In this document: one piece after another, positions 3,101 through 59,862 of the stretch
Numbering within the stretch: the stretch's first letter is position 1
How the letters are laid out: every line of letters starts with the position of its first letter
From: Amphiura filiformis
Lineage: Eukaryota > Echinodermata > Ophiuroidea > Amphilepidida > Amphiuridae
DNA: 64,000 nucleotides
NCBI RefSeq assembly: GCF_039555335.1
Contig: NC_092636.1
Span: 2,785,464-2,849,463, forward strand
Direction of reading: 5' to 3'
Made by a program: the position numbers and the translations under genes
The notes under the pieces: model-generated
Told to the model about the DNA's origin: nothing
The model's input: only the letters and a program-made list of their open reading frames with translations
Databases searched by the model: none

Positions 3101-3854
3101 TACCAATACATTTTTAGTACAATTTAAAATCTCTAAATTTGAATCATCACGAAAATTAAGTAGGCGTTCACCATTACTGTTTAATACAGGATCCCCAAAG
3201 GAATTTCCGGCCAATTCTGGCGTTCATGTCGCTCATGATCAAGATATCTGGATCGTCATCTTGATCCTCAATGAGCATAACTTCAGAAAGTAATTGACTA
3301 TATAATTCATTAGTCAAGTCCGCGTTAACACCTTCACCTGGGAAATACGCTACTGCTATATACATTGGTTTATCATCGAAAACACACTTTAACCCACAAC
3401 CTTTCATACTCATCAGTGAATGAATTAAAGACATCGTCATTAATAATAACACAAGTCGACTCAGAAATTAAAAGACCGATGCCCCCTCCCCCTTTATTAA
3501 TTCTATTTTTGCCCACCCATCTGTAACCTTGTATATTAACTCCATCATCTCCTTTAAAGAAAGTTTCAGCAATGCCAAAAACATCAAATTTTTCATCATT
3601 AATTAACTTCTCAACTTCATGAACTTTTGGATGAAGTCTGTTTACATTGTTGAAAGCAAGTTTAATTTTAGTTTGTGTACAGTTATTTCTAATTGACTTA
3701 TTCTTACCTCCCGTCTATGACGGCGTTTTTTAGGTTTTGTGACTTTATCATCATTTTTAAACACATCATTATTATCAATACACACACAATCATCATAATC
3801 ATCAACATATTCAAGTTCATCAATTAAAGGTGAAAAAGAGTTCGTGCATTCCAC
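164..3854 (-). pseudogene. LINE ORF2: AP-like endonuclease and reverse transcriptase
   Basis: The second LINE protein, read in pieces across several frames. The endonuclease shows an early FGIAETFF segment (catalytic Glu) near 3560, SDMNARIG near 3215 and GSDHNVLLL near 2970, as in APE-type LINE nucleases. The reverse transcriptase shows SPGLDGITNELLK near 2125, IVPIFKKGS near 1995 and the catalytic WADD motif, whose ADD codons lie at 1452-1460. Thumb-like sequence (LGWVPI) follows near 950. A C-terminal Cys/His motif, CKLCNIGVEDVKHFLFTC, lies at about 425-478. The enzyme would nick target DNA and copy the element's RNA onto it. At least five frame breaks mean it is no longer functional. I am sure of the class, less of the clade. 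Confidence 0.88.
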
Positions 3855-3869
3855 GATGCTTGCTATATC

Positions 3870-5540: not shown

Positions 5541-5720
5541 TGTGCAGATAAATAGCAGTATAAATATAATAAATATCAAATGGCACGTTGAAAAAGAGAG
5601 TGTTCAATATTAGCGGCTATACGGCGTTACCATAAACAAATATGTTGCTATGCATATATATCCGGTTGAATGAGAGCAGTGCAGAGACACGTCCGTTCAC
5701 TATGAAAGCAGGAAGCTATT

Positions 5721-7744: not shown

Positions 7745-8989
7745 GTAACATACACACTTATAGGCTGATACCATTTCATGGTTCAGCAAAAAGATCATGA
7801 ATTTCTATCATGATTTCTAGTTTATGCATTGAATCTTTGGCCAGGGGGGTCAACTTTGGTTTGGGTGGGGATGTACCGGCTGGGACTCCAAAAAACTACC
7901 CAACCCGAAATTATACCATTTTAAGGAAAATGATACATAAATTTTACTAAAAACAATGAAAAATTGGCGCTTTTCAAGTTCAATAAAACAAAAACTTATA
8001 AAAACACCCTTTCTTACTGAAACCAAATTTTCACAAAAAATGACCCACCCCCCTCGGATCTTGGGTGGAGAAAATCCGAAAGCATGATCATTGACCCAAT
8101 TTTGTTTGCAAAACAAAAAATAATTCTTCAGTAAAATTATTTTACTTACTAATTGTCAAAAACTGGATATTAAGATCTATTAACTTTTTTTTTCATTTCG
8201 ACCAAACTTTTTAGTTAAAATCATGTTTGTTTGTGATTTTCTCCAAAAATTAGCATTTCAGCCAATGGTGGTGGGTGTTTTTCATAATACTAAAATAGGC
8301 AAAAAAGTGGTATGTTTGGACTCACTTGGTTTGGGAAAAAAAGGTTGGTTGGTCGATTACTTTTTTTATTAAATTATAAAGTAAAAACTATGAATGAATT
8401 GACAGTATCTCATACTGATCAAACCATGAAAGTTTAAAATTTGGCATTCATTGCAACATGATGGGGAAACCCAGCTAATGCAAGAATTGCCACATGATGG
8501 GGAAAACCCAGCTAATGATTCTATAACCCATGACCATGACAGTGTGTATTTAGGATTTTAGGGTTTTTCCTACAACTTATTTTATTCCAGCCATACTGAT
8601 ACATGATATGCATGCTAGAAAGATTGTAGCAATCTCGGTGCTGGACCATTGAATTTAAATTCACCATTCATTTACATGTACAACTGGCACAACCTTACCA
8701 GGTCATTTTGTCAGTTCTATTCCACCATACCTGACTAATTATTAGGACAAATTAAACTGCTGAAAAGTTGGAATAGCTGTGACTCTAAGCTACTCTAGTC
8801 TACTAGATGTGTACCTCTTGTAAAAAACCTTTAAACCATCAAATTTCAGCCGAGCTGGGTTGTATGTATTCTGCTGAATCTGGAGTTTTAATTAATTCCT
8901 ACAAGTGAAACAGCATCCCATTGTGCACGGAAGTGATTATGACTTACATGATATAGAGCTATATAGCATAGGCCTGCTAGACTTTCACC
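7745..8989. other. Intergenic, no gene seen; short direct repeat
   Basis: A 30-odd-base direct repeat occurs near 8455-8520 (TGATGGGGAAACCCAGCTAA twice). The bases just upstream of 8990 give a good translation start context (CACCATGGC) for the following gene but show no clear TATA box. Confidence 0.35.
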
Positions 8990-9301
8990 ATGGCTGAGTA
9001 TGTTACAACAGAGTTTACTTCACTACCTACAGATTTAACATCTCAAAATAGGCCTATTCTTGAACAGAATACTTGTGGAATATGTCACAAGGAACTTTCC
9101 AATCCCTGCTGTCTTCCATGTAAGCATGTATTTTGTCATCAATGTTTGGTAGATCAATGTTGCGCCAGTGAGGATCCAGAGACAATCATTTGTTGTGTGT
9201 GTCACAAATCTTGTCACAAACCGATGGATGGAATTGGAGCTTTCCCCTCATCACAACGTTCAAGTAGACAATCCGTTCGAGGTGTTAGGCCCAAGTACCA
9301 G
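8990..9301 (+). CDS. Exon 1 of the fusion gene: RING finger
   Basis: 104 codons in phase 0, ending at a GTAAGT donor at 9302. The start ATG sits in CACCATGGC. The RING ligands are C29, C32, C44, H46, C49, C52, C68 and C71 (CGIC...CKHVFCHQC...CCVC), the C3HC4 order of E3 ubiquitin ligases such as TRIM proteins. The segment between C52 and C68 is a little long and lacks the usual Pro in the last CPxC, but all eight ligands are present. A Ser/Arg-rich linker follows. This exon has no defect. Confidence 0.88.
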
Positions 9302-9779
9302 GTAAGTTTCTGCCAGTATAGTAGGCTTTAGGGACAAATCATATGTGTGTTCAGTGGAGTGATTTGAATATTTTTTTTTTCAATCAAACAGTGATTTAAA
9401 GTTAGGGGCAAATCTTTTTTTGATTGAATTTTCACAGTATAGAAAGGATTGATTTTCATTCTAATATTTTGAAGACTGGAATTAGGGACAAATTCTTTCC
9501 AGTTGAAAAAAAGATTGAAAATATACACTCTAAAAAGTTTGAAATCTCATTCCAAACCCATTTAACTCTCGACATGCCATTTGGCAGTAGGCCTACATTT
9601 AGGAGTAACACATGATTGAAAATTGAAATCAGTCTACAAAAGAGTAATAAGAGTTAAACCAAAACCATTTCAATCTATTTGGATTGATGCCTTTCACTAA
9701 TTGTTAAAAGATTGAAATATTTCAATCAGTCAATAGCTCTGGAAAAAATGTTAACCATGATATGGTAAACAGTTCAAGG

Positions 9780-10172
9780 GGCTGTGCAATAATTATGAGC
9801 CCTGGTGGGAGGGTAAAATTGGGGGAAACAAATTTTGGAGATCCAAAAGGGGGCAGCAATTTCTTGCAAGCCGAGAGGGGGAAGTGATTTTTGGTACACA
9901 TGGGCGCCTTTGAAATAAAGTGCTCCAAAAAGGCTTAGGAAAACAGTACAGAAACACCGTATAAATATGCACATTTTCCTGCTCGCTGCACTCGCAACAT
10001 GTATCTAAACCATTTAACTTAAGGTTTGTAAACTGGGATTCAAAAATATTGGCATGCGCAAGGGGGGGAGTTTTGGCAGGCGGGGGCAAGTGATTTTTAG
10101 CAGGCCGAGAGGAGGGGGAAAGTGATTTGTGGCGAGCCATTTGGAAATTTGACTCATAATTATTGCACAGCC
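9780..10172. mobile_element. TIR element in intron 1 of the fusion gene
   Basis: About 22-base terminal inverted repeats: GGCTGTGCAATAATTATGAG on the left and its near-complement ending CTCATAATTATTGCACAGCC on the right. The interior is G-rich and non-coding. No clear target-site duplication, so the superfamily is open. Confidence 0.6.
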
Positions 10173-10330
10173 TCTAACCATGGTTGATCATGGTTACTGA
10201 CCAAAGGTTGATCACACCATGGTCAAGCATGGCTTAAGCATGGTTGCCCATGGTTAGCCATGGTCATTTGCTGACTTGTCCATGTCTGTGGTCATCAGTG
10301 CAGATCATGGTTGACCATAGATAGCCATAG
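10173..10330. repeat. Irregular CCATGGT/CATGGTTG array
   Basis: About a dozen copies of CATGGT or its complement at irregular spacing over 150 bases, immediately after the TIR element. Low-complexity expansion; no coding sense. Confidence 0.5.
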
Positions 10331-10839
10331 ATTTTTGTAAGCATTTGACAAGTTATAGCCTATATCTCAAATCAAGAAAAATGGATTATCACTTTTTGCA
10401 TCTGCACTCCTCATTTTTTAGCGATCATTTATGTAAGTTGATCGACAGCCTCACCCCCCCCCCCTGATTTTTCTCATTGTGGATGAGTTTTTGGTATCAT
10501 ATAACAGATAATTACCATCGTGAAATTTGATGCTCCTACTTGATGTATTTCCAAAGAAATCATGAAAAACAGTCCATTTATGCCTGGTTATCAATTTCAG
10601 TGATATTTCACATGCCCAGGAATTGCAGGTAGCCAAAGAATGAAATCAGGATGAATTTGAGATGTTTTAGCCCGATACCAGTTTGCCCGCAAACATGTGA
10701 ACACTATTATTATAATATTTCTCTGTTATCAGTTATCAGGGCGCTATAACAATATAGACTTGAAACAAAAATAAAGAAATACACAAAGGGCAAAATAAAC
10801 AAAATGCATTTCACTTAGGGTCATTTTAACCATTTTCAG

Positions 10840-11477
10840 AGTCGCCGTTCATCAAAAACAAGAGAATTATGCAAGGTTCACACTCTTTCACCAATGTCAA
10901 AGGATTATTATTGTCATACATGTGAAAAGTCCATCTGCAGAGATTGTTCAAATTTGAAAACCATGTGCCATGATCATCATACAGTATACTTGAGTGATGC
11001 AGCAAAAGAGCATAAAAAAATCTTAGAGGACAAAGCTGAACTGCTGGTATGTAAACAAAAAGAAGTTCAAGATGCCATAGCTGAGATCAACTCTTTCCAA
11101 AGAGGATGTGCAGTGGCAGTAGAGGCAAAAGTAAAAGAAATAGCCAGAGAAAAACAGCAGCATTCCAATAAGTTTGAAGAAGCGGCAAAGAAACAACAGC
11201 AAAGACAGGAAGAAGTAGCCAAAAAGCTTGCTGAAACAACCGCAAAATTATTTGAAAGAGAAATGCAGCTACAACAGGCCATAGAAGAAGTTTCAAGTAC
11301 GAAAGAGAGTGAAGATGACCACTTTGTGTCTGGGAAGTTTGCCAATCTTGCAAAGAATGTGGAGAAGTTAAGTCAAATCCAACCCAAAAAGCTGACTGAA
11401 GATGAAAAAAGCTGAGTTGCGGGACATTGGGAATATTGCAGATATGCCTCTTCCGGATGGCAGTTACAAGTTTCAAG
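10840..11477 (+). CDS. Exon 2 of the fusion gene: B-box and coiled coil
   Basis: The acceptor CAG lies at 10837-10839. Reading in phase from exon 1 gives CKVHTLSPMSKDYYCHTC, then EKSICRDC and HDHHTVYL, a B-box zinc finger. About 130 residues rich in Lys, Glu and Gln with heptad-like spacing follow, the coiled coil through which TRIM proteins dimerise. The frame hits a TGA at 11413 unless one A is dropped from the six-A run at 11405-11410. After the shift it reads DMPLPDGSYKFQ into the GTAAGT donor at 11478, so the downstream part was clearly coding. A homopolymer error in the assembly is as likely as a true mutation. Confidence 0.85.
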
Positions 11478-11874
11478 GTAAGTTATTTTGAAAAGATCAT
11501 GATTTCCTAAAATATCAACAATAACAGCTATCTAGGCACCAACCCATCAGCTTTACCATATAGGTCTAAATGTTTAGCTGTTATTGTGTTAATGCCTTGA
11601 TTTGTCTTGACATAAGTATATGTCAGCAAAGTTCATTTTTGTGATTTTAATGCTACGCTACAATTTGTTCAAATTTCTCTCGCTTATGTATTAATTTGTT
11701 GAACAAATCATCTTGGGGGGTTATATATATTACTTCACAAATTTCTCCCGTAAAATGTATATTGCTGTGAAGTGATTATATCACTGTTTCTACGGGCGAT
11801 CACCCTCAAGTGGTGGCATGTCACAAACGAACACTGACTATAGGCTTAAAACTCGATCTTTACCACTATAAGAT

Positions 11875-11946
11875 GCCGTCATAGCTAAGTGGTAGAGCAC
11901 AGCAACTAGTAACGCCGAGGTCGTTGTTTGAGTCCTTCTGTCGGCA
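11875..11946 (+). repeat. tRNA-Thr-like SINE head in intron 2
   Basis: A 72-base tRNA-like unit: acceptor strands GCCGTCA and TGTCGGC pair at six of seven positions, the D-arm is TAGCTAAGTGGTAGAGCA and the loop CTAGTAA gives anticodon AGT (Thr). The anticodon stem is badly mismatched. The following 60 bases (AAAGTTCATTTTTGTGATTT onward) repeat the sequence at about 11625-11686 almost exactly, so this is a SINE, possibly inserted into or next to another copy. Not a working tRNA gene. Confidence 0.6.
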
Positions 11947-12053
11947 AAGTTCATTTTTGTGATTTTAATGCTACACTACAATTTGTTCAAATTTCTCTTG
12001 CTTTTTATATAATATATTATAATAAACATTGCCTATATTGTATCTTTTCTCAG

Positions 12054-13013
12054 GTGTAGATACATTACGTCTGGTTCTCATAGGCCTCACAGGAGCTGGG
12101 AAAAGTACTACTGGTAACAGCATTCTAGCACCTGCTTACCTTTCCACAGAAGCACCTCACTATGGCAAGAGTGGAATGTGGGGAACAATAAAACGTCCTT
12201 TGAAGATTAAGCGCAAGTGGAGGTTCTGTTACTTCAAAATGTGAAAGAAAGAAAGCTCAAATTCAGGGTCGCTTGGTTACTGTCATTGATACTCCTGGAT
12301 TCTATGATACTAAGAAGAATTATGAGAGCACCATCACTGAAATCCTGAACTGCATGTATCTCTCAGCTCCAGGCCCTCATGCTATTTTGCTTGTCATTAA
12401 GATAGGACGTCACACAGAAGATGATATCAAAGCAGTTGAACTCATGAGACATGTGTTTGGAGAAGACTCAATCAAGTTTCTCATGATTGTCTTTACTGGA
12501 GCTGATCAGTTGAAGGCTACCGGTGAAGATATCGAAGAAGTGGTTGCAAATTAAGAGGGGCCAATTCAAGATTTACTGCAAGAATGTGAAAATCGATATG
12601 TACATTTTGATAACATGGTCAAGCCTCTGTCAGCAGAGAATTCAAACCAGATCAGCAATCTCTTGACAATGGCTGAAGATATTGCCAAAAGTAATGATGG
12701 AAAGTGCTTTAAGGATACTCTATCCACCAGGGTAGCAGAAATGATAGAAAGGAAGCTTAACCAAACAAAAGAGCAGATCAAGACACTGACACAGATGAAG
12801 ATGGAACTGGAGAAGAAGCTGCAAGAAGCAGCAAGAAAACTGAAACAAGGAGAAAATCTAGCAGAGGTTGAAAAGGCTGAATTGAGGAAACAAATAGAAG
12901 ACCTGAAAAACGAAATAGAGGAAAAGAGAAGATACTTCATGAACGTACACTTGCATCAGAACAACCAAAAGTCATGTTGATAGAAGATGAAGCAACAGTT
13001 GACATGGTTGGAG
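12054..13013 (+). CDS. Exon 3 of the fusion gene: AIG1/GIMAP-type GTPase and coiled coil
   Basis: Joined to exon 2 in phase 1, it reads G1 (P-loop) GLTGAGKSTTGNSIL, G3 DTPGFYD, G4 FTGADQL and a G5-like CENRYVHFDN, in AIG1 order and spacing. A Lys/Glu-rich helical stretch follows. Between the P-loop and the switch region about 50 bases (about 12127-12177) do not match AIG1, and the frame changes before SGGSVTSKCERK. A TAA at 12552 interrupts the domain between EEVVAN and the clearly homologous LLQECENRY. A shift near 12930 moves the tail into the frame that reads LHERTLASEQPKVM and reaches the GTAAGT donor at 13014. The family match is firm; an intact product is doubtful. Confidence 0.85.
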
Positions 13014-19070: not shown

Positions 19071-19654
19071 GTTCATACATACCCAATATTCTGAACATTG
19101 TTATTCAATACAAATGAAAATAATGAGGGTTTACAAGTTTAAATAACATTTCCATACCGTTTTCCTTCAAAAATTGGGAGAAAATGAGTAGGCCTACTTG
19201 CAGGAAGCACCTCGGCTCATAAGGTCAACGGCCGGGAGTCAACGCGTTCATATTTGCGCTCCGCGTGAGATGGGCGCGGTTAAATGCGCATGTACGCAAC
19301 ACTAGCAAATCGTTGATCACGTTAATTGGGTTCCAACGCTGCGCGACGCAGCTTGTTTATGCCCTGCGTACTGGTCATAAACGGTATTTATGACCAGCAA
19401 AAAAGGGCCCAAATCCAATCAGAAACGTCGTTATATCGTGAGAATGTATGAATAAGATTTATGTAACTCATGCAAAGTTTCTTGTCATTTGATTGGCTAA
19501 TTACTATTGATTATTTATTCGTTCAAATGAAAGAATATTTCCATTCGGTGAAATATATACTCCATTCAACTCGACAAAGCCTCACTGAATGGAACAGTCC
19601 ATATTTCACCTCATGAAAACATTCTTACCATTGAACTCATAAACATTCAATATT

Positions 19655-20245
19655 TGTATATACAATTGACCAGGATACCTGTCACCATGCTGTTCGCTCT
19701 CTCATACTGTCCCAACTTGATTATGGCAATGCAATCCTCTATGGTATCACTCAAGGTGAAAGAAATAGACTGCAGAAGCTGCAAAATCGTGCTGTGTGTT
19801 TGATTTTCTCTGTCCCTCGCTCAACTGGTACCTCCGACCTTCTCATTCAATTGCATTGGCTTCCAATCCAGGACCGAATTCTTTTTAAACTTCTGCTTTA
19901 TGTTTTCAAGTGCTCTCAGGGCCGTGCCCCCAATTATATTTGTGAGCTTCTTTCAGCCTATGCTCCCGGAAGAGAATTGAGATCTTCTTCCGATAAGACT
20001 CTGCTTAGTCAGCCTAGGGCACATAGAGGATCTGGTTTAAATACCTTCTCTGGAAGAAACTCCCTAAAGCCATCAGGGAGTCTCCATCAATTCCAGTTTT
20101 CAGGAAGAAACTGAAAACTCACCTTTTCAGTTAGCTTCTTTCTTGTTCCGCTGTGTTTCTTTTTTCCCCATCCTTTCTCTCCTTGTTCAGCGCTTTGATA
20201 AATTTAAGGCGCTATATAAATACCTTTATGTATGTATGTATGTAT
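19655..20245 (+). mobile_element. 5'-truncated CR1/L2-like LINE tail
   Basis: Translation gives fragments of the reverse transcriptase C-terminus: SQLDYGNAILYGI, RLQKLQNRAVCLIFSVPR, then LIQLHWLPIQDRILFKLLLY and GRAPNYICELLS, all typical of CR1/L2/Rex-type LINEs. A frame shift falls near 20060. The non-coding tail ends GGCGCTATATAAATACC followed by a (TATG)n microsatellite at about 20225-20246, the normal 3' end of such elements. Only about 590 bases remain. Confidence 0.85.
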
Positions 20246-20423: not shown

Positions 20424-21226
20424 AAACATTTTGGATTTTTTGTTTGACAAAACCAAGTGAGTACTCACTACAATATTTCGTCCTACTCGTCGGAGGACTT
20501 CATCAGGTATGACTGATATGGTCATCTGATCCACTTTCCCGCAAACAAGTTTGAGTGATTTCGGTTTTCCTTAGTCTCTTTTGCAGACTTCAGTAGTGGA
20601 TCATAGACGTGACTTAAGAGGTATGTGCCCTCCTCTCTGTTTAGGGTCTTGGTGCACCGTCTCCTTATTTCCATTGCTTCCGGCACTTCTCTAGACCTTT
20701 TCTCGTGTTCCCGTCCAAGGATCTTAGATTCTTCCCAGTCTATAACATGGTTTGCCCGTGCAACGTGATCTGAAATTGCTGATTTTGTTTGTTCCATTTC
20801 GGATGTCTTTCGTTCAGAGCGGTGTACTTTTTCTCACTCGCCTTTTGACTTCTGCCTGGTGTTCAGCTAACCTGGTACCTAACATGCGTGAAGTTTCTCC
20901 TACATAACTGAGGTCACAATTATGATCCTTGGACGGGAACACGATAAAAGGTCTAGAGAAGTGCGGGAAGCAATGGAAATAAGGAGACGGGGCACCAAGA
21001 CCCTAAACAGAGAGGAGGGCACATACCTCTTAAGTCACGCCTTATGATCCACTACTGAAGTCTGCAAAAGAGACTAAGGAAAACCGAAATCACTCAAACT
21101 TGTTTGTTGGGAAAGTGGATCAGATGACCATATCAGTCATACCTGATGAAGTCCTCCGACAGTAGGACGTAAATATTGTAGTGAGTATTCACTTGGTTTT
21201 GTCAAACAAAAAATCCAAAATGTTTA
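20424..21226 (-). mobile_element. Penelope-like element fragment with inverted end copies
   Basis: On the minus strand 20930-20522 encodes GIY-YIG endonuclease sequence: YVGETSRMLGTRLAEHQAEV, then SAISDHVARANHVIDWE and NREEGTYLLSHVYDPLL, the hallmark C-terminus of Penelope-like retroelements. The terminal 300 bases (20424-20728) recur as an inverted copy at about 20930-21226. An imperfect direct repeat, TCAATG..GTATTTCATATT, flanks the structure at 20403-20421 and 21255-21273 and may be the target duplication. Inverted partial end copies are known for this class. The element is strongly 5'-truncated and inactive. Confidence 0.8.
20460..20520 (-). ncRNA. Hammerhead-ribozyme-like core in the Penelope-like element
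   Basis: On the minus strand CTGATGA (complement of 20500-20506) is followed by stem II, GTCC pairing with GGAC around an 11-base loop, and then GAAA (complement of 20476-20479). This is the conserved hammerhead core. TATT and a possible GTA cleavage triplet come next, then GTGAG, which can partly pair with the bases before CTGATGA (stem I). Stem III would be very short, as in the minimal type I hammerheads known in Penelope-like elements, which may need a dimer. The inverted copy at about 21130-21185 has CTGATGA but GTAAA in place of GAAA. Confidence 0.65.
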
Positions 21227-25110: not shown

Positions 25111-28100
25111 ATGGACCAAGCTGAAGACATCTGTCCCCAATGTGAAAAGCGCCCTTCTGCTACCACTAAAGATTGCTTGGTTTGCAATCTGAATAACTTA
25201 GTTGACGCTGATTTACAGGTACATTGTATACAGTATACTGATCAAAGGTCTTCAACTTTTTTGTGTCATGACACACAAGGCAAAATTTACACTTGACATG
25301 CAAAGAATTCTATTAATCAACTCCAGCATGTAAAATTACATATTGATTTACCAAGTAAATCCAGATTAAATAACGAAGGCATGTAGCATCGAATGTCGAA
25401 TAAAAAGTCTGCAGCAGGCCTTAACTGGCATGGCAGCTTGGACTCATGTCTATATCTTTAAAAAAAACACAATGGCTAACACAGGGCCATTCCGACCATT
25501 AGGCCAGGTAAGGCGGTCACCTAGGGCAGCAAACGCAGAGGGGCGGGCGCAAAAAGAAAAAACAGGAATGGAGAAAGAAATGAAAAGGAAAAATGAGGGT
25601 GGATAAAAAGAAAAAATGGGGGACAAAATGAAAAGGGGGCGAAAAGAGAAACAGAAAACAGAGCGAAAAAGGGGGACCTGAGAAAAAGAAATGAAACGGG
25701 GCAGAGAAAAGGAAAGAGGACACGGGTGAAGAAAAAGAAAGGGTGTAACCCCCTAAACACTTATTTGGTATGTTTTGGTGGGGCAGCAGGGAGAGGCTTT
25801 GCCTAGGGCGGCAAAATCCCTAGGAACGGCCCTGGGCGCTAACACCCAGGGACTAACCGACTAAGAGTGCATTTATTTTCTATTTGATATCAGCCTCTGG
25901 AACAGGGTCAGCAGGAGCAACAGTCATTGCTCATGGAAAGCGAATCTGCAGCCAGTATGGACCAAAATGAAGATATATGTCCCCAATGTGAAAAGCGCCC
26001 TCCTGCCACCACTATAGATTGCTTAGTCTGCAATTTGAATAGCACTGACATGCAGGTACATATTTGTATAGCTAAATCATTGAGACTTGATCATTTTTAT
26101 TAATGAACATTAAAGGCGGGAGCCGTGTGATATTTTACAGGCATATGAGATGAGAACAATTTATTTTGATAGATTGAATTTTAGCAGCAGCCCAGCCCAG
26201 TGGCAAGATGCAGAACAAAGTCTGTATAATACAGGAAAAAGCTATTTGTGAGAAACATGATTAAAAAATTATCTGATATTCAATTGTGTTGGGGAAATTA
26301 AGTTCCAGATACGATACTTAATGATGCCAAAATCACACTTTTACAAAAAATAATCATGTCAATATAAGCTTCACTATATCTGCTAACATTGTATTGCTAA
26401 CAGTGCATTTATTTTCTATCAGCCTCCCAAACAGGACCAGCAAATCCAGCGAAATCCAGTTCCTCAATCTCACCAACCAAACATGGCTGCAATCAATGGT
26501 CGGGTGGACAAACAAACGGCAATTCAGCGGCTTGCAATGCTCTTACATGCACAAAAGTGCCAGAGACAGTGCACTTTGCATCGTTATCGACTTCGTGCTT
26601 ATTGCCGTACGATGAAAAATGTGCTGAATCACATGACAAAGTTCTGCCATTCCAAAAGCTTATGCCAAGGTATGATATTCTCTACAAAGTCTTGGTTAGT
26701 TTTATGATTATGGTTTGTTAGGCTTATAATTGGTGAAAATGATTGTTTTTGTTACTGCACATGTCAATTAAGCACCATCTTAAATTGACATAAGTGTGTG
26801 CCAGTCACCACGAGTGGTTTGAAAACAAATGCGAAATGCGATTTAAAAAAAAATTTTATTCCCGACTTTTTTTACGGTATTTTTAGGAAAAAAGTCTGAT
26901 TTTCGCCGAATTTTTCTGAAAAAACTAAAAAGGGTGCTGTGCTCAACTAATATATTTAAACTTGCTTTCCACTTAATTCCAAAAGTTTAAAATCACACAC
27001 CACAACTTAATATTTTTATCTTTGGTGAATATTAATAGGATGCCTTAAAAGGGCAAATTAAACATTTAAGCTATCTTCAGTAGATAGCACTGGCAGCACA
27101 TATTATACATGGCTCATTAAAAAATTCTCCAACCACACCACAAACACTTACAAGAATGTTTTGTTCGTGGAGTGAACTATGATTCCACTTGATAAACACA
27201 TATCTTATTTGCACAGTTTATCCCTTATATACCCTGTGTCTTGAATAGCTATTGTAGCCCATCAACTCGTATAAAACATTAAAGCTATCTTCAGTAGATA
27301 GTACAGTAAGAACAAATCTTCATAATGTAAACTGAACAATATTGTATGTACTTGTTTGTTTTGCTTTGTTTTCCCTGCATTGGTCCATGCTGTTGTTTTG
27401 CACTGACATGAAGGCCACTGTCCTGGGTTTTTTGTGTGCTTTTTAACCTTGTTTGTTATAAAAGAAATAAGAAGATCATGGTTTAGACAGGATGGGTTAA
27501 ATTAAGATCATAAATATGTTTTAAACTTTAAAAAAAATCAAAAACACTACCAAAATATTTTAATAATATTAACAAAAAGTTAGTATAAAATAGTTTTTTA
27601 TAGTTTTTTAAAAATAATATGCTATTATTTGGGCTAATAGTCTGCATTTTTATCCCATTTCAGTTGCATATTGTGCTTCATCAAGACGAATCCTTTCTCA
27701 CTGGGAAACCTGCCCTGCTCCTCGAAACAACTGCCCTGTATGCACACCTATAAGGCAAGTTTCAGAAAGGCGAAAGAGTAGTAAGTACTTCAAGATTCTT
27801 GGATTTTGGTTGGGCTTAGTCTCCATAGTACATAACAAGTAATAGTTTATCATGCAGTGCGTAAAATGGGTCCTCCCAGAAGGGCTTTCATGGTTTGTTA
27901 TGATATGATATTAAAGTATAAGCACAATGACCTCCATTGACCCCTAGATGACATATGACCTTGTGTCTGTTGACATCACAAATGTCAATGTACCCAAGGG
28001 TCATTGTGTCCAAGTAGAAATCCATCAAAGCAACAACAAAAAAATGGATGTCCGACTGACTGAATGCTCCCCACAATTTTGAGGGCATGGTATTTGGGAG

Positions 28101-31100
28101 CTGAAGGCATACCAGTCAAAGGGGGTCATTTGGACCAACAAAAGGTCAAAATCTAGGGCTTTCCCAGTTTTCTGGTTGAAAATCACCTGGAAATCAAGTG
28201 TCTTTCAGTGCTCTCTACAATTACATTTTGACAATGTGTTTAAAATGGGGAGGGGGGTTGATGAGGGGGCAAATTCCCCCAGTCACAACTCTTGCCCCCC
28301 TGTTTCCCAAACCAAAAATTACGAAAATTTCCATATTTTGCTGCAATTTTGTGCAAAATTTGGTGATTTTGCCCCCCTAAAATTCACTTTGCCCCCTCAA
28401 TGCCCTCAATGATGACTTAAATTCTGTTTTTCTCTCAATTTCTCTTCAGACAAAAACAGGTTGATCATACGTCGGCTTTTGCTGCTGTTACATGCACACC
28501 GTTGTATGCGTAGAGAAAGGAACCAGGCTAACCAACCAATCCGACCATGCACTCAACATGTCCCTCACTGCCAAGCTATGAAAAATGTGCTGAATCACAT
28601 GAGAAACTGTCATGCAGGAAAGTCCTGTAAAGGTATGGTATTCCTTGTCCCTTATTGCATGGCAGCTAACATTCAGTGTGTTTATACTGAGAGTATGGCG
28701 TTTTTTTGACATGCTATTTCCGGGGTACAAAATACCGATCATATTCCAACCGCCATGATTACCCAGCTTGTTAGCTCTTGTTTCTACTGAGGCAGAAAGC
28801 TGTGTCTCGAAAGATGCACAGCATTTTTTCCTGTAAACTGGAAGTACGGAAAACAGATTTCAACATAAGTAAATAACTGCCTGACTGTAAAAAGATCATC
28901 TCATAAGCATGATAAGGTAGAGAAGATCTCCCACCACCAAATCAAAGTCCCATAGAGATAATGTACTAAATCATTTTTTCTTCATAGGAGTGACTCAGTT
29001 CTTAGCGGAAGCTATGAGGGTTGAAATCAACCCTTGTCTGGCCCCTCTGGCTGGAAAAAAATAGGTTGACCGTCATTATTTTGCACAACTGGTTCACAAA
29101 AGTATTATTGTGTCCTGAAAATTTACATGCAAAATCATGCCATTGTTACTGTATAGAACAAAAAGGGCTGCTTAAAATCATTAAAAATGACTTGACCTCT
29201 CCCATCTGTTGTACACTTGCAGGATTTAAGAGGGTTTATCCGATAGACTCAGATGGTAGGTGGAAGATGGGGGTCAGCAAATTTTGTTCATATTTTGTCA
29301 ATCAAACATGTGTCCATGAGTATTTACAGTGGAGGTATTAAAAATTTTGAGGACCCCCACTGGGAGATACTGGACCCCCCTCAAATTGACCCCCATGATT
29401 GTCTTCTCAGACACAAAAACTTTGAAATGTGCACTAACTTTTGATTAGAGCCACGTAATAACGCGCATCTGCAGACATTTTATTTATACTTCACAGTAAT
29501 AATACACATTTTGTCTCGACATAACAATTAAAAATTCTTTGTACAACATTTGGGTTGTTCCATATTCAGAGAGGGGTGTAATGCCCTTTTCAGCAATTGT
29601 GTAAATGTGAAAAATTCTAATTTTGAAGCAAAGTTTGCAAGATGATTGTGAGAGTTCCTCAATATTTTTGACAAAGTTATTTACTTGTTGGATAAAGTAG
29701 ATATAGGTTGATTAATTGAGCAAATAAAAATCGTGGAAACTTTTTCCGTTTTAAAATGAGCACATCTTACTTTATGCTCTTTTTCAGAAAAGTGCAAAAT
29801 ACTAATTTTGAAGCAAAGTTTGCAAGATGATTGTGAGAGTTCCTCAATATTTTTGTCAAAGTTATTTACTTGTTGGATAAAGTTGATATAGGTTGAACAA
29901 TTGAGCAAATAAAAATTGTGGAGACTTTTTCCGTTTTAAAATGAGCACATCTTACTTTATGCTCTTTTTCAGAAAAGTGCAAAATTGCGATATTTTCATG
30001 CTAAACTCAGGTACGGTGATTTTTCTAAGTTTAAAAATGAAATTTGATGAAAAGGGAGCCTATCAGAAGTAAACAACATCAACAAAACTATTACATAATA
30101 AATTGGGGCCTAAATTATGTTGGATAAATGCTTATAGAACAGGACTATTCTATAAAGGGGTTCAGTAGGCCTACCCCGGGTCAGTACTAAAATTCTGTCT
30201 GTGCTGATTTAAAAATAACCTTTTTGCATCATGCTTTATGCACCCTCAAATGAATATTACCTTTTTCTTCCAAGGAACGCAGGTAGGGCTTACAATAATT
30301 ATTTTCTATCACTATGTAGTTAACAACAAAGACAATAATATATTGGAACACTACATTGATCAAGTAGGGGTGTTATTGTGTTAAACATAAAAACGCTTAT
30401 GTATCTATGATTCTCGATTTTTGAAATACCAAAAATGCCGACATATTATATGGATTTTGGGGTTTGTATTGAGGATCCTTTGATGGTCAATATACTAGTA
30501 AACTGCTCTCTTTCATCTGAGTGACCTCTGTCTATTAAGGGCGCAGACCACCAAATAACCTCTCCATCATAGTGAAAAGCATGTAAAAATCAACATTTTT
30601 AAGCGGCAATTCTACCACGCATGACAATAGTTTTCTTTATTTTTAGCTGTATTAAATAAAGCCTAAATTTTCACTTAAGCTCCAATTTTGTCTATCTTTA
30701 CAGGTAAGGTTCAGTTTTTATTAACAAATGTTAGAAAGTGATGCTGCTATTTCAACATCGAAATTAGTACTAAAACGGGCTCTGTTAGCAGTTATTCGGA
30801 GAGGGCCTATACTTTTCTGGTGAAATCGAATTTGCTTAATGTTACTGGGGAAATTCGCTTAAATATTAGTATAAATGGCCATTGCCATGACAACTGCCTT
30901 GTCTTTGAAATCTCCAATACATGTAGCTTAAAATTAAAGAATCCATGTATATCAATAGTATACTTATAAAGTGTAATACAAACTTTTTAATGCAACAAAT
31001 TGCTCAAAATGAAGAAAATGGGTCAATTTGGGTCAAACTGCCCAAAATTCAAAGATCATAGATTACTGGGGAAATTCGCTTAAATATTAGTATAAATGGC

Positions 31101-34100
31101 CATTGCCATGGCAATTGCCTTCCTTTGAAATCTCCTAATACATGTAACTTAAAATTAAAGAATCCATATATCAATAATATACTCATTAAGTGTAATACAA
31201 ACTTTTTTAAAACAACAAATTGCTCAAAATGTTGTTGCTGTCATCTGGGATGAGGGAGGCAACAAAAGTTGGTATATTGGGTTTTACCTTGATGATAATG
31301 GGGATGAAACGCGGGGACAAAACCTTCGAGTGGATCACCTGATGCTTGGCGTTTGGTACTGATACCGGAGATGAAAGTTAGCAGCGACAACATGGCACTG
31401 ATGATGATATCTAGGACACTATCATGCAGCAGTTTGAGATTGTGCCTGTGACACTTATCAGTTTCCGTAGCAACATAACAAGTAGCCATTTATATTATGG
31501 TTTTTTTTGTAAATTTTACCTCATATTGTGGAGATGTCTTAAAGTTTTACTCCCAAATAGTTAGTATTGGGGATAACAAATTTTCTTTCCCTCATCTTAT
31601 TTTAACATACCACTGTCACCGTAGAAGGTCAAGGGTCAATACACATGGCTTAGTTGGAGCTCTCCCATACTGACAGTGTAAAAAATGAGATCAGGAAAAG
31701 AGAATTTATTATCCCTGATACTGGCTATTCCGGGTAAAATGTATAGGTCATGTTCACATGATGAGGGAATTTGTCAAATGTTACTGGGGAAAATTTGCTT
31801 TAAAATTAGTATATATGGCCGTTGCCATGGAAACTGCCTTCTCTTTGAATAATCCTAGCTCACAATTAAAGAAGCCTCATATAATCAGTAAATATAAAGT
31901 GTAACTTTTGTAATGCAAGAAATTGCTAAAAATGTAAATACAATAAAATCCATTAAACTATCAAAATTGTATAAAAGTCTGCAATGCAAAAATCTACATT
32001 TTTTACTTGATGTAACGTATGTTGTGTGTCTATTTCGTTTTTCCAATTTATAGTGTTATGGAAGTTTTTACCTGTTGTCTAGCTTTTTCTGTAATTTAAA
32101 TATGAGGTCTATGGGCCTGGTTCAAAATTTGGGTAAAAAAGGTGCATTGGGTCAGAAATGGTCGTAACTCAACACATGAAGATTTGAGACTACTTCTAAC
32201 TGCATAAATAGATTGATTGACCAAAAAACCCATAGACTAGACACCAGAACCTGGTAAAAGACCCAAAAATGACAAAGTTATGGCTAAAATGTGATTTTCA
32301 GGGAAAATGTGGCCATTTTGGATTTTTTGCTGTGCACATTCTTTTTGAAACACAGGCTTAACATTTTGTAATTTCATGTTGAGATAAGCCTAGGTTAAAT
32401 AGAACATACAAAAAACTTATCCCAAGCAAAACAAAACAAGTCCCATTTATAGCCCACTCCTAGCATTAAGTTCCACCCCAGGTTATTAGGATTTAGTACT
32501 TTGGGGTATGGGGCCCTACTAGGCCTAGTTCCTATAGCTTAAGTACTGATGCATGTGAAATGATTAAGAATCAGAATAGGAGCTTGTGATTTTCATAATA
32601 ATCATAATACCACTAACATGTATGAATACGAGCTTGTGACATTAGAGGGGCTCATATTCAAGGAGCATTATCTACTGGCGATTTTACCAATATGCTGTAA
32701 AAGAGAAACACCTACCCCTGTACTTGATTTGCATTCTTAAATGTGGTTCTTAACTCCTCAATGGAATAACTGACTATTGGCTCAAGAAAAGGGACTGCTA
32801 CAGTGAAAAGATATTATATTTGATGTTGGCGTTATATACAGCATCATTATACCAATCTCACATATTGGGAATATCCATGTTTGTCTTCTATGAAAAGTAA
32901 AAAAGTCTCCATGATTTTTATTGCATTATATAAATGACCTATGTACAGAGGTTCTCTCCTGTAATGAACAATTTGAGAAAGATTGAGGAACTCCTACAAT
33001 GACGTCACAAAGTAGAGGGATATTTCACCTTTTTTCAAAAGTTGTAAAATGTGAAATATTGGCCCCCACCCCTGTTCATAAATGGAACATCCCAATATAA
33101 ACATTTGTTGTTTTATATTTTTTGATAAAGACAAAGGATGAAAGAAGATGTGTAGAAAAATTTACTTTCATAGATGCTTGTCTTAGGTGCCAAAAATTTG
33201 TTCAAAATGGCATAAAACGGCATTTTACAAGTCAGGGAAATACGTGTTAGGGGGCATATTTTAGGGGCCCATATTTCCCAGGAGGGGCATAGCAGATTTT
33301 TTTATACTGATTATTATGAACACTTATCCAAACTTATTAAATTGCCAAAATATGGTTGAAATTTGCTGACCCCCATCTTCCACCTTTTTCCCATGGCATC
33401 AGTATTTCTCAGAAAATCTCTCTTAACATCACTAATCATGACCAATCCAAATTTAGCCAAAATTATGCAAATTTCTGCTCATTTTAATGCTTAATTTAAT
33501 GCAGACAGTGATTTTTTCTGAGAATTGAAATTAAGGGTGCACAACTATATTTCTATTTGGTGGTGTGAAATCAGATCTTTTCTACATTATTACAGCAAAG
33601 AAGGGTGCTGGAGATAGAGCTAGCCTTTTCATTGGCAGCTTCACTTTACCTGTTCGTAAGTGCTATTACTCTCTATTAAGATATTTTTTCATAATAATGA
33701 ATATTTATTTATAACTCATATTTTGTCCAATTTCAGTTCCAAATTGTAGGTCATCAAGACAAATCCTTTCTCACTGGAACCACTGCTCTGCTCGTAGAAA
33801 GAACTGCCATATATGCACACCTTTAATGAAAGCTAAAACTAATCCATCACAGAGAGGTAGGTAGTGTTCTAATTTCTTACATTACATAAACATTATTTTT
33901 TCACCAGGTTCGCCATTTGCGACGGCGAACCTGGTGAAAAATAATGTTTATTTATATAATTCCCATTGATCTTGCCACTGTTTTTCCGTGTTCTTACATT
34001 AGATTATCCAAACATTTTTGACGACAAAATAAGCTTTAAAAAGTCAGTGGTTCACTAACAAAACTGTCAGCAAGAAACTAAGTTGGTTTTGACAGATTTT

Positions 34101-35956
34101 AATCTTTTAATTTTTTTAAAAACTCTTTATTATTAATTAATAATTAATCTGTTAAACTTGTTTTTGTGATTTTCTGACTTTGCTTAAGGGATCCGGAATG
34201 AGCGTTTCGACAGTATCTTTTGTGAGACATGTGAGCACATCAGACATATCGAACTGCATTCTGAATATGAAGAATGTCTTTCTGATATCAAATAATTTTC
34301 ATTTTTGAAATTCATGATAATTTATAATACCAATTTTATGACAAATTATTAACATTTGATATTTTTCACATTTTTGATATATAACAGTCCTCGAAATAAA
34401 TTATATAAATCTAATGATATATTCTTAAAGTGTATGTAGCTGTGAGGAAAAGCCGACGATCAAATGAAAATTTTGACTTTTCATATTGAAGATATGGATT
34501 TTTTTCCCAAAAAGACCTAATTTTTTCTGGTGTTTTGGGAAAAAATCCATATCTTCAATACGAAAAGGTCAAAATTTTCAATTGATCGTCGGCTTTTCAT
34601 CCCACCTACATACACTTTAAGTATAAATCATCAGATTTATAAAGTTTACCAGTACTGTTAAATATCAAAAATATCAATTTTTAATCATTTGCCATAAAAT
34701 GTGTATTACATTGCTAATTTCAAAAAATCAAAATTATTTGATATCAGAAGGACATTCTTCGCATTCAGAATGCAATTCGATATGTCTGATGTGCTCCAAT
34801 GTCCCACAATAAATACTGTCCAAACGATCATACCCCACCCCGTAATAATCAGACACATATTCAAATGTAACAGATTTAGAACAAATTTGGACTTGTTTTA
34901 AATTTGTAAATTGTCTTCTTGTTTAACTTCACAACTTGGGATAAATCACAATAAAATGGGAGATATTATTATTATCAATGATTTAGTACCAATAAGCTGT
35001 ATCTGCAATAGCTACCCTATAGAATTTTGTGATGCGATGAAGCTATGAGTCTGTCGATCAAAATCAAAATTCAGTTTTCAATTTCATTACAAGTGCCGTT
35101 CTCATATACCTTTATTTTGCTGAAAACTTCATCATAATTAAACGTACATTTCCAGTGATAATGCCTTTTAAATGTTGCTTAGAAAAACAAAATACAAAAG
35201 AAAGTATTATTGAGTATTTGATCTTTTAAAACCAAAATATTGACACTGACCTGACAGTTTTGTATGTATTGCTATTGGACAACATACTTCTTCAGAGTAC
35301 TTGCTATCCCATCATTCTCTTTGCTGGTAACACAGCAATCTCTGCATAATTTATTGGCTATATCTCATAAGTAATATTCCAGACATCTAACTCATTTGCT
35401 TGATCACATCACATCGTAATTTCTGTACTCCATAATTGACATTTGACAATTTCTGCATTCTAATTGTACACATCTAGAAATATGACAACCGTCATCTATT
35501 GCAGATAGGCCCTTATCTTGCGCAAAGAGCTGTAATTTTGTTTTGACTCCATGGTTTTATTTAAAATCTTAAATTTTTATCACAAATACAGTGCCTGAAG
35601 CCTTTGTTTTTGCAGGGTATGTTAGTTTATTAAGTACATTACAATCACATAAAAGTCAGAATTTTGAAAAACATTAAGAGTATCCTCCTCAGCAAGTTAC
35701 AATTTTTCTTTAATTAAATACATTACAGTCGTGTGTAAAAATCATAAAAATTGTAAAACCAATTGATGGGATCCTCCTCAGCAAATGTTAAAATATTGAA
35801 GACAAAATCTGAATTTAGAATTTATGTTATTTTTAAAGGTTTGATTTTATAATCTATGCTTTGTATATCTTTTTCCTGATCAAATCTTTACTTGCTGTTC
35901 TACATTTTTTCACAGCTCTCCTTGCTCGGTTGAGTATCATGAGTATGAATGATTAG
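25111..35956 (+). CDS. Tandem TAZ zinc-finger protein, 325 aa
   Basis: Seven coding exons: 25111-25218, 25894-26055, 26423-26669, 27664-27780, 28450-28632, 33737-33856 and 35916-35956. All have GT-AG borders and matching phases, and the summed length is exactly 326 codons including TAG. The first coding exon opens with an acceptor at 25104, so a 5' UTR exon lies upstream. Order: two near-identical CxxC-x10-CxxC mini-motifs (ICPQCEKRP...DCLVC), then two TAZ domains closely resembling CBP/p300 TAZ1 ([22 protein letters not shown]). In CBP, TAZ domains bind activation domains of transcription factors. No acetyltransferase, bromodomain or KIX region follows, so this is a free-standing adaptor-like protein, probably nuclear (inferred). 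No disabling change seen. Confidence 0.9.
25482..25834. mobile_element. TIR element with polypurine core in TAZ intron 1
   Basis: Ends CAGGGCCATTCC and the complement of CAGGGCCGTTCC, typical of hAT-type elements. An imperfect GCTAACAC lies on both sides. The next inner parts, CACCTAGGGCAGC and GCCTAGGGCGGC, are also shared between the ends. About 190 bases inside (25550-25742) are almost pure A/G on the plus strand, which may be a simple-repeat expansion. Confidence 0.6.
26423..27780 (+). CDS. TAZ module 1 (exons 3-4 of the TAZ gene)
   Basis: A Gln/Pro-rich lead ([18 protein letters not shown]) precedes the domain. It reads [35 protein letters not shown], then across the intron [17 protein letters not shown] and NCPVCTP. 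The second and third zinc sites (HCCC: His of NHM with Cys of FC, LC, YC; His of SHW with Cys of TC, NC, VC) are complete. At the first site the Cys pair is spaced differently from CBP (C-x10-C, not C-x4-C) and the loop is recast, so this site may be lost or altered. The exon shares its upstream intron end with 25861-25893, showing it arose next to a duplicated exon. Confidence 0.88.
26670..27663. other. TAZ intron 3 with a repeated small hairpin
   Basis: ACATTWAAGCTATCTTCAGTAGATAG occurs twice, near 27061 and 27280. The inner GCTATC...GATAGC is an inverted repeat. Otherwise AT-rich, nothing coding. Confidence 0.4.
28250..28412. mobile_element. Partial hAT-like MITE (CAGTGG family), copy 2
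   Basis: Shares the interior of 39769-39960: GGGGGCAAATTCCCCCAGTC, CAAAAATTACGAAAATTTCC and TTGCCCCCCTAAAATTCACT. The terminal CAGTGG ends are eroded and no target duplication is visible. Lies in the intron before TAZ module 2, ending about 40 bases before the exon. Confidence 0.6.
28450..33856 (+). CDS. TAZ module 2 (exons 5-6 of the TAZ gene)
   Basis: Exon 5 reads [38 protein letters not shown] and CHAGKSCK; exon 6, 5.1 kb away, continues [17 protein letters not shown] and NCHICTPL. All twelve zinc ligands of a TAZ fold can be placed, including a first site close to CBP (C-x6-C). The exon split falls at the same point (between the two Cys of the second zinc site, phase 1) as in module 1, so the two modules come from duplication of an exon pair. 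The very long intron is filled with repeats. Confidence 0.88.
29617..29986. repeat. 185-bp tandem duplication in a TAZ intron
   Basis: 29617-29801 and 29802-29986 are about 97 percent identical (CTAATTTTGAAGCAAAGTTT opens each; TGCTCTTTTTCAGAAAAGTG closes each). High identity implies a recent event. No reading frame runs through it. Confidence 0.85.
30841..31935. repeat. Three spaced copies of a 165-bp repeat in a TAZ intron
   Basis: Copies at 30841-31010, 31063-31230 and 31780-31935 each begin TTACTGGGGAAA and contain AGTATAAATGGCCATTGCCATG. The first two are about 93 percent alike, the third more diverged. The gap between copies two and three holds unrelated sequence. No coding sense seen. 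Confidence 0.75.
31936..33595. other. TAZ intron with dispersed repeats, no gene
   Basis: The segment 33230-33400 is an inverted, diverged copy of 29253-29440 (shared GGTGGAAGATGGGGGTCAGC). Nothing coding recognised. Confidence 0.4.
33596..33655 (+). CDS. Possible 60-base cassette exon of the TAZ gene
   Basis: TATTACAG at 33588-33595 and a GTAAGT donor at 33656 bound 60 bases. They are open in phase 1 on both sides and would add [19 protein letters not shown]-like residues in the middle of TAZ module 2. Symmetric phase and good splice sites favour a cassette. Interrupting a zinc site with 20 residues argues against it being constitutive. Confidence 0.35.
33893..33951. repeat. Perfect hairpin in a TAZ intron
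   Basis: Arms of 22 bases (TTTTTCACCAGGTTCGCC and complement) flank ATTTGCGAC. The core TTTGCGACGGCGAACC recurs after the tRNA-like unit at 22074 and in part near 40190, so it may be the stub of a SINE or MITE family. Confidence 0.6.
34184..34845. repeat. Long foldback element, about 660 bp
   Basis: Two arms of about 320 bases face each other around 34511-34534. Arm landmarks: TCAGACATATCGAACTGCAT outermost, TTGATATCAAATAATTT in the middle and GATATGGATTTTTTCCCAAA innermost, each with its complement on the right. Ends are TTAAGGGATCCGGAATGA and, complemented, TTACGGGGTGGGGTATGA. Arms differ at roughly one base in ten. No protein. Transcribed within the TAZ intron, it would form a long double-stranded RNA stem. 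Confidence 0.8.
35590..35800. repeat. Dispersed repeat, inverted copy near 51945-52065
   Basis: Contains GTGCCTGAAGCCTTTGTTTTTGC, TTAAGTACATTACAATC and GATCCTCCTCAGCAAATGTT. The complement of these blocks occurs in reverse order at 51945-52065 (AACATTTGCTGAGGAGAACA onward). Lies about 115 bases before the last TAZ exon. Confidence 0.5.
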
Positions 35957-40243: not shown

Positions 40244-41819
40244 TCATTCTTTTTCATAAACCTGAATCATTCCACTGGTTTCCTTCAACACAAACAACTT
40301 CTTCCCATCTAATGAAACCCCAACTTGATCAGAGATGTCAAAATCAACATCCACCTGTGCCAAATAAATACCACACAGAGTATAAGAGAAGATCTTCATC
40401 ACTGGAGATGCATTCACAATGTACAACTCATTGCCACAGCACCAAACGTCTCTTGGTGCCCAATGTGTAACATCTGGAGGAGATGGAATGATGCGGACAT
40501 TATCTCCTGAATACTTCACTAATTGAACAGTGTTATCATAGAATATGATGATGATATCTTCATTGTTGCCAACAGCTGCAAGATGTCTTGGACTTGATGA
40601 AGTAATGAAGCTGTTTATGAGTGAGCCATCTGGGTTGTGAACGGAGACGCAAGGTGGCCTGGGGACTAAAGTTGGCTGTTTTTGATCCAGCTAAGATCCT
40701 ACCTTTCGAATCGGAAGTCATAACAGGTTTGTGAAATGGCAGAGGGATCCCATTTGCTCCTAGAAGAGAGAATGAAGAATGTCCCTTCCCATCAAGCTGA
40801 TGCACTGCCAATCTGCTATTATTGTAAGAAATGAATCCTCCATCTGATAAGATGATGACACCATCTTTTGGAGGAACTTCGGAAGTATGTATCAATTCTC
40901 CAAGTTCTGAGAGAATGACTAGCTTACAGTCCATAACTATACTGATATTTCCATTACTGTGAGATTCAATTCTAACAACAGGCGTGGAATTCAAATAACA
41001 CTTTGCATCAATCGTTTGAATCCGTTTCCATGACGATTTGCTATAGAATGGCACACTTGGAAGCATCACTTCCATTTTGCTCAATGAAGCATCTGCTGGA
41101 ATAATCCTCAAGTTGCCGATTTCTTGAAGCTTATTTGATAACATCGTAAACTTCGACACAATTTCAAACTTGGAAGATTCCATAGCAGATGCTCCTGAAT
41201 GAATAACATCTCTTACAGCATCATAATCTGACTGCAGATTGGTCTTAACTTCACCTATTGCTTGTAACCCTGTTTCCTCAATCTTCATCACATTGTTCTC
41301 AAAGGATGCAAAACTTTCATCCAACTTACTTATACATTCATTTCTGGTATTATTCAATGTAACTCTTGATGTTTCCACCGCATCTGCAAACTTAGTTTCA
41401 AGTTCCTCAGTCTTCTTTAAAGCAAACTGACATCTTATGACAGTAAACTTACATTGGTAAATAAGAGTGTTCAGTTGTCTCAACTGCTCCGTAGATGCAT
41501 CTTTCAAAGTCATATAAAGATGATCAAAGCAAAAGCTCTTCAAAATACAATCCCCACATACGACTTCATCACATGTCTTGCAGTAAAACCGTTTGACTTC
41601 TCTATGCTTGCTACAACACTGTTCTGGTTGGAGGCCACCTTTCAATACATCATGGTCTTCCACTTTTAAGATATTGTGATGTTTCATAACCTTAAAGGAT
41701 TCATGAGATGCATGACAGGGTTGGCAGAGAGCTTCCTGGCAGTCTAGGCAATATGCTATTGGTTTGGTGCCTGGGATGTTGCAAATCCTGCACTCGGTTA
41801 TTGGTAGACCATCTTTTAT
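40244..41819 (-). CDS. Double B-box, coiled-coil, beta-propeller-like protein (TRIM-like, no RING)
   Basis: A single large coding exon entered through an acceptor (TTTCTAG, complement of 41820-41826), so an upstream start exon is missing. Translation: an atypical first B-box (ECRICNIPG...YCLDCQEALCQPCHASH), a standard second B-box (CSKHREVKRFYCKTC, VVCGDC, DHLYMTL), about 130 residues of coiled coil, then a C-terminal repeat region of NHL/propeller style (VHNPDGSLINSF; SLDGKKLFVLKE) ending at TGA 40244-40246. It is a clear paralogue of the gene at 51038-55711, facing away from it. One extra base in the G4 run at 40661-40664 shifts the frame between NFSP and CVSVHNPDG. A homopolymer error or a late mutation would both explain this. 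Probable role, by family: protein-binding scaffold. Confidence 0.85.
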
Positions 41820-41883
41820 CTAGAAACAAAGTATATGCGTAGAAATTCAAATTTTCTGTATCTAGGTTTTAATGTAATGATAG

Positions 41884-42038
<155 letters not shown>

Positions 42039-42144
42039 TTATTACACCCCAATACACAGTCTGTATTTGCTAGCAGTTTGTAATCAGCTTGCCAGGCTTG
42101 CCGGGCACTCCCACTTTGGAGTTGACACGTATGTAGGACTGTAA

Positions 42145-59290: not shown

Positions 59291-59423
59291 TAGAGTTTGA
59301 AATAAAACCTTCCTAAAACCTTCCTAAATTGTGTCAGAGCAAAATTTTGTATTGACATGTGAGTATTAAATATTCTTGTAGTGTAATAATGACCTTTGGT
59401 CAAGTTCAAGCGTTCTTTCTTAC

Positions 59424-59756: not shown

Positions 59757-59862
59757 GATGGTTTATACCCCAGACCCTGTAAAAAATATCAACATTTAAA
59801 GAATAATTTTAAAAAGGCGGTTCTCGACCCCCTGCTTTCGCGATTACTAACCTGCAACAACA

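Follow-up and report, generated by a model that had tools for sequence, protein, structure and literature searches.

A candidate gene for a protein with two TAZ1 domains and a zinc-knuckle pair, found apart from other CBP/p300 domains in a 64-kb stretch of the Amphiura filiformis genome

We analyzed a 64,000-nucleotide stretch of contig NC_092636.1 of Amphiura filiformis, referred to here as the window. A predicted gene of seven GT-AG-bounded exons lies on the forward strand at 25111-35956 (Table 1), encoding two TAZ1-like domains, TAZ-A and TAZ-B, preceded by a pair of short Cys4 motifs. The joined exons measure 978 nt, or 326 codons (325 amino acids and a stop), with no internal stop, in agreement with the sequence-only reading of seven exons totalling exactly 326 codons. 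The entry phases of exons 1 to 7 are 0, 0, 0, 1, 1, 1 and 1. The intron within the TAZ1 domain of human CREBBP and EP300 is also of phase 1, placed after the Cys-Gln of zinc site 2, and is followed by an exon of ~114 nt with phases 1-1. The predicted product has a mass of about 37 kDa and a pI of about 9.5.

Table 1. The exons of the double-TAZ1 gene and other features of the window.
Feature	Position	Strand	Content	Evidence or location
Exon 1	25111-25218	+	read from ATG; zinc-knuckle copy 1, C-X2-C-X10-C-X2-C	acceptor 25104/25105
Exon 2	25894-26055	+	Q-rich lead, then zinc-knuckle copy 2	
Exon 3	26423-26669	+	Q-rich linker and TAZ-A first half	zf-TAZ profile, tblastn
Exon 4	27664-27780	+	TAZ-A second half	zf-TAZ profile, tblastn
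Exon 5	28450-28632	+	TAZ-B first half	zf-TAZ profile, PDB search, tblastn
Exon 6	33737-33856	+	TAZ-B second half	zf-TAZ profile, PDB search, tblastn
Exon 7	35916-35956	+	final 13 codons; stop ends at 35956	weakly supported
Direct repeat	29603-29985		period 185, 2.1 copies, 95% matches	within intron 5-6
Inverted repeat	34198-34834		~640 nt, 82% identity to own reverse complement	within intron 6-7
LINE-like element	167-5603	-	reverse-transcriptase-like, endonuclease-like and PHD-like ORFs	assigned by eye from translations
Possible GTPase gene	8981-12977	+	RING-like, B-box-like/coiled-coil and AIG1/GIMAP-type GTPase pieces	AIG1 4.2e-29; P-loop at ~12071
ORF	19635-20111	+		
ORF	20525-20833	-		
B-box gene	40247-41819	-	B-box	zf-B_box 3.5e-7
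Microsatellite	41808-42080		long, ATG/ATC-type	adjoins minus-strand B-box gene
B-box gene	54044-55708	+	B-box	zf-B_box 1.7e-8; weak NHL repeat match
ORF	59409-59762	-		

Splice sites were ranked with a simple score based on consensus frequencies. Among 3313 GT sites of the window the six donors fall within the top 0.3-4.0%, and the seven acceptors, that of exon 1 being taken from Table 1, within the top 1.2-7.9% of 3286 AG sites. TAZ1 homology runs across joins 3-4 and 5-6, and join 4-5, which links TAZ-A to TAZ-B, was placed by phase and splice sites only. At the 5' end, exon 1 is preceded by an acceptor in phase 0, which points to a further exon upstream, coding or non-coding. Support for exon 7 is limited to a well-scoring acceptor and an open frame; read-through of the exon 6 donor gives an alternative end, GR-stop. 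The earliest AATAAA 3' of the stop lies at 36576, 620 nt on.

We also considered a 60-nt cassette exon before exon 6 (33596-33655, forward strand), which is in frame with AG/GT borders and, if spliced in, would add 20 residues between two of the zinc-2 cysteines of TAZ-B. It was rejected as chance-level: its donor has a negative score, and the window contains 38 phase-1 open candidates whose summed score is equal or better. A direct repeat and an inverted repeat are present in the two last introns.

Other features surround the gene. Two pieces of the LINE-like element scanned with Pfam gave no reverse-transcriptase hit and only PHD below cut-off. In the possible GTPase gene the RING score is below the Pfam cut-off, and a Pfam scan of 10819-11412 gave no B-box hit; the ORF there is 30% identical over 166 residues to the B-box gene at 54 kb. 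The two B-box genes are related to each other (~30% identical) and both look like TRIM relatives. The microsatellite beside one of them translates as poly-Met/poly-Ile. Three ORFs of 103-159 codons, for which Pfam gave no match above cut-off, may be coding or derived from mobile elements. No Rfam families were found in the window at gathering scores.

The Pfam zf-TAZ profile (PF02135) matches the whole protein in two stretches with an E value of 1.7e-23. Scanned alone, TAZ-A (7.5e-12, 46 bits) and TAZ-B (7.5e-16, 58.8 bits) each pass the curated cut-off of 25 bits. In tblastn with pieces of human p300 as queries, p300 TAZ1 matched exons 3, 4, 5 and 6 at E values of 1.4e-8, 6e-10, 2.4e-12 and 4.7e-6. 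Chance is excluded for this match, since the best single-exon score is 53.1 bits and the best scores per window in 20 triplet-shuffled windows are 17.3-24.3 bits. The subtype is TAZ1, as both copies were matched by the p300 TAZ1 piece and the ZZ/TAZ2 piece reached only E 0.19, on exon 5. A PDB sequence search returned seven distinct sequences, named CBP, p300 or histone acetyltransferase (best 1.1e-27), and the alignments listed, five of the seven, are to TAZ1. The best stretch was always in TAZ-B, so the TAZ1 type of TAZ-A comes from the p300 tblastn and not from the PDB search. With zf-TAZ above cut-off in each copy, and TAZ1 rather than TAZ2 indicated by tblastn, the two CBP-TAZ1-like domains in tandem that had been read from the sequence are borne out. 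No further TAZ or zinc-knuckle copies were found in the 64-kb window, where other tblastn hits reached E 0.19 at best. TAZ1 relatives were not confirmed among 60 pattern stretches from viral contigs or among 45 from prokaryote genome contigs.

Alignment with CBP and p300 indicates that all presumed zinc ligands are kept, 12/12 in TAZ-A and 12/12 in TAZ-B (24/24 in total). The three HCCC zinc sites that we took as the mark of a TAZ1 domain are, by these presumed ligands, present in each copy. TAZ-B is identical to CBP TAZ1 at 52 of 89 positions and TAZ-A at 45 of 80, and the two copies are identical to each other at 42 of 89. In each copy the zinc-3 loop is longer by two residues. TAZ-A has further changes: zinc site 1 reads C-X10-C, compared with C-X4-C in CBP, and is 11 residues shorter than that of TAZ-B from the second ligand to the third, while zinc site 2 reads H-X4-C, compared with H-X3-C. 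The altered spacing at these two sites makes the geometry of TAZ-A uncertain, notably at site 1, and given this spacing its binding may be different or weak.

We then mapped the binding surface, using the positions named in the passages of PMC3760798 available to us: the pocket for RelA Leu465, the Val481 contacts, the core and exchange-protected residues, and the basic cleft. Lys366 of that account was read as K365, since position 366 is a ligand cysteine, and Lys438 and Arg439 lie outside the alignment. The Leu465 pocket comprises eight residues, two of them also ligands, of which TAZ-B keeps seven (V428I changed) and TAZ-A six (I353A and Q413R changed). At the 19 listed non-ligand positions, 12 residues are identical in TAZ-B, compared with 28/58 elsewhere, and 10 in TAZ-A, compared with 23/58, a conservation excess that appears modest. 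Basic residues are present at three of four mapped positions in TAZ-B (K419N lost) and at two in TAZ-A (R369Q, K419E). An acidic activation domain is described as lying on a strongly electropositive TAZ1 surface (PMC3760798). The two domains here carry net charges of +20 and +16, compared with +10 for CBP TAZ1 (stretches of 101, 96 and 89 residues), and the N-terminal 110 residues of the protein carry -11.

The N-terminal region contains a second duplication. Exons 1 and 2 each encode the same C-X2-C-X10-C-X2-C motif, and their DNA is 88.8% identical over 89 nt. No PDB match was found for knuckle copy 2 and no NCBIfam match for either copy; the Pfam double zinc ribbon (PF12773) scored 18 bits on the N-terminal 110 residues (E 0.0034), below its cut-off of 27.3. 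Exons 2 and 3 are alike at their 5' ends and in the intron ends that precede them, which suggests that exon 2 arose by local exon shuffling. This zinc-knuckle duplication, together with the uneven divergence of the repeated exons, is additional to what the sequence-only reading had claimed. CxxC...CxxC stretches are also present in the two B-box genes and in the RING-like ORF of the window.

The duplicated exon pairs, compared by Nei-Gojobori dN/dS with a one-sided Fisher test, have diverged unevenly. Two of the three pairs look purifying: exons 1/2 (dN/dS 0.15, 29 codons, p 0.004) and the core of exons 3/5 (dN/dS 0.22, p 0.019, over 22 hand-picked codons with one unpaired codon omitted). Exons 4/6 are without a purifying signal (dN/dS 3.1, 30 codons), with 15.3 nonsynonymous and 1.7 synonymous differences, and are 82.9% identical in DNA over 111 columns, 19 intron bases included. 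The three pairs pooled give p 0.036. Positive selection on exons 4/6 was considered and set aside, the excess not being significant (p 0.18). Synonymous differences are fewer in exons 4/6 (~2/21) than in exons 3/5 (7/11; p 0.0026), and the shortage relative to exons 1/2 is borderline (p 0.055), both comparisons being post hoc with rounded counts. On these small counts, a simple reading would place the duplication or conversion of the second-half exon after that of the first half.

The rest of CBP/p300 was sought in the 64-kb window by tblastn with five human p300 pieces, which covered the N-terminal 50 residues, KIX, the bromodomain through HAT, ZZ/TAZ2 and NCBD. The HAT core with bromodomain gave nothing better than E 4.2, and KIX, ZZ/TAZ2 and NCBD gave at best E 0.72, 0.19 and 1.6. 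For the N-terminal 50 residues nothing was found below E 0.19. The hit at E 0.19 falls on exon 5, within TAZ-B itself, and comes from the TAZ2 part of the query. Within the 64 kb, the claim that the catalytic parts of CBP/p300 are missing is upheld.

We propose that the gene encodes a non-catalytic double-TAZ1 protein derived from CBP/p300, which docks activation domains and competes with CBP; on the sequence evidence we rate this reading at about an even chance. Its observed part comprises the gene model, the domain identity, the presumed ligands, the lack, within 64 kb, of the CBP domains searched for, and the purifying signal in two of the three exon pairs. A CBP/p300 gene would have been duplicated in part, over its TAZ1 exons, to give a separate protein-coding gene, in which TAZ1 was then doubled in tandem and combined with a short Cys4 zinc-knuckle exon, itself duplicated. 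The product would lack acetyltransferase, bromodomain, KIX and TAZ2. Its two basic TAZ1 modules may dock the acidic disordered activation domains to which CBP TAZ1 binds, of the HIF-alpha, CITED, Rel/NF-kB and STAT types, which, in an expressed and nuclear protein, would thereby be kept from CBP by competition. A competitor role appears plausible since the domains retain the zinc ligands and the basic charge, along with the greater part of one listed binding pocket. In a more elaborate and rather unlikely form of this proposal, the protein would be an activation-domain trap in which the TAZ1 second halves were homogenised and then diversified, tuned to two sets of transcription factors, and the zinc-knuckle pair was joined, giving a lineage-specific CBP antagonist without HAT. 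The sequence of homogenisation and diversification is suggested by the few synonymous and many amino-acid changes between exons 4 and 6.

A different use of the same domains is possible, though we hold it only tentatively. The protein may be an adaptor, whose two TAZ1 modules bridge two activators while the knuckles recruit a third partner, so that activation or assembly would proceed with no acetylation; in addition, the acidic stretch of 110 residues at the N-terminus might fold back on the basic TAZ1 modules. The divergence of the TAZ1 copies and the acidic N-terminus are consistent with this reading, as is the presence of a further duplicated motif, the zinc knuckle, for which no family model scored above cut-off. 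Of fourteen cbp-1-dependent reporters in C. elegans, only some respond to cbp-2 and only some to cbp-3, according to the passages of PMC10320766 available, which would also fit. Exons 4/6, with dN/dS 3.1, would by themselves accord with a decaying or silent duplicate that is still open by chance, but such a pseudogene is unlikely when all seven exons are open, the 12 splice sites of the six introns are intact, 24/24 presumed ligands are kept and two of three exon pairs retain a purifying signal.

The extent of the gene has likewise to be weighed. CBP TAZ1 is located N-terminal to KIX and HAT in the part of PMC12547938 consulted, so catalytic exons would be expected downstream if these exons formed the N-terminal end of a larger CBP-like gene, with other exons outside the window or missed, and exon 7 is short and weakly supported. 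We consider this very unlikely: the searched CBP domains were found neither in the 28 kb downstream nor in the 25 kb upstream, an unrelated B-box gene on the minus strand follows, and two TAZ1 copies with zinc knuckles are unlike the CBP layout. Least probable of all, to a degree that we regard as slight, is that the exons do not form one protein, for example if exon 7 or exon 1 is wrongly called, or if the two TAZ copies lie on separate transcripts. The 13-codon exon 7, the read-through of exon 6 that ends after GR, and the possibly internal exon 1 would allow it, but the phases fit throughout and TAZ1 homology crosses joins 3-4 and 5-6.

TAZ1 is a hub in CBP/p300 function. Its partners include HIF-1alpha, CITED2, RelA, STAT2, p53 and beta-catenin, factors that often compete for TAZ1, as stated in the part of PMC12547938 consulted, and CBP/p300 is described as limiting in the passages of PMC3760798. 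An unattached double TAZ1 with no HAT, if it binds TAZ1 partners, would naturally serve as competitor or adaptor at this hub. A double-TAZ1 protein could either withhold transcription factors or link them.

Finally, we compared the predicted protein with known systems. The premise of a TAZ domain largely restricted to CBP/p300 has to be qualified, as the TAZ1 paralogues CBP-2 and CBP-3 of C. elegans lack HAT (PMC10320766). In the available passages of that account, CBP-3 has the first zinc finger domain only and CBP-2 that domain and KIX; we read the first zinc finger domain as TAZ1. Both genes are located within 160 kb of cbp-1 and likely arose by partial gene duplication. RNAi of cbp-2 and of cbp-3 each affected multiple promoters, though not all of the fourteen cbp-1-dependent reporters, a precedent for function in such short paralogues, and in these passages competition is not established as the mechanism (PMC10320766). 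The CBP/P300 family counts 12 genes in P. pacificus and seven in C. elegans (PMC11075575, Table 1, seen as an extract), and the TAZ type is listed among fungal transcription factor domains in the part of PMC5415576 consulted. The A. filiformis gene shares with CBP-2 and CBP-3 the form of a short CBP/p300 homologue that keeps TAZ1 and lacks HAT, here within 64 kb. It differs in having two TAZ1 domains, compared with one in each nematode protein, and a zinc-knuckle pair, none being reported there in section 22 of the account. In C. elegans cbp-1 is nearby; here no other CBP part was found in the 64-kb window. The gene would extend the nematode type of short CBP paralogue to a two-TAZ1 architecture.

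Compared with the TAZ1 domain of CBP/p300 (CH1; PDB 1r8u, 1l8c, 1l3e), the two domains share the fold family, 12 presumed ligands per domain, the basic charge and, for the positions listed in the source used, most of the RelA Leu465 pocket. The loops at zinc sites 1 and 3 are longer here, and site 2 is changed in TAZ-A. Whereas TAZ1 is joined to catalytic domains in CBP/p300, no such domains accompany it in the window. Plant BTB-TAZ proteins also carry a TAZ domain outside the KAT3 acetyltransferases, together with a BTB domain. TAZ outside KAT3 is common to both, whereas BTB is absent here, with no Pfam BTB match in the 325 residues. No report of a tandem-TAZ1 protein was found among the literature matches listed, which were judged by title, consisted mostly of unrelated work, and came from a search with most subscription journals outside it. 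Free TAZ1 proteins were already known; among the matches listed, what is new here is the tandem of two TAZ1 domains combined with a zinc-knuckle pair.
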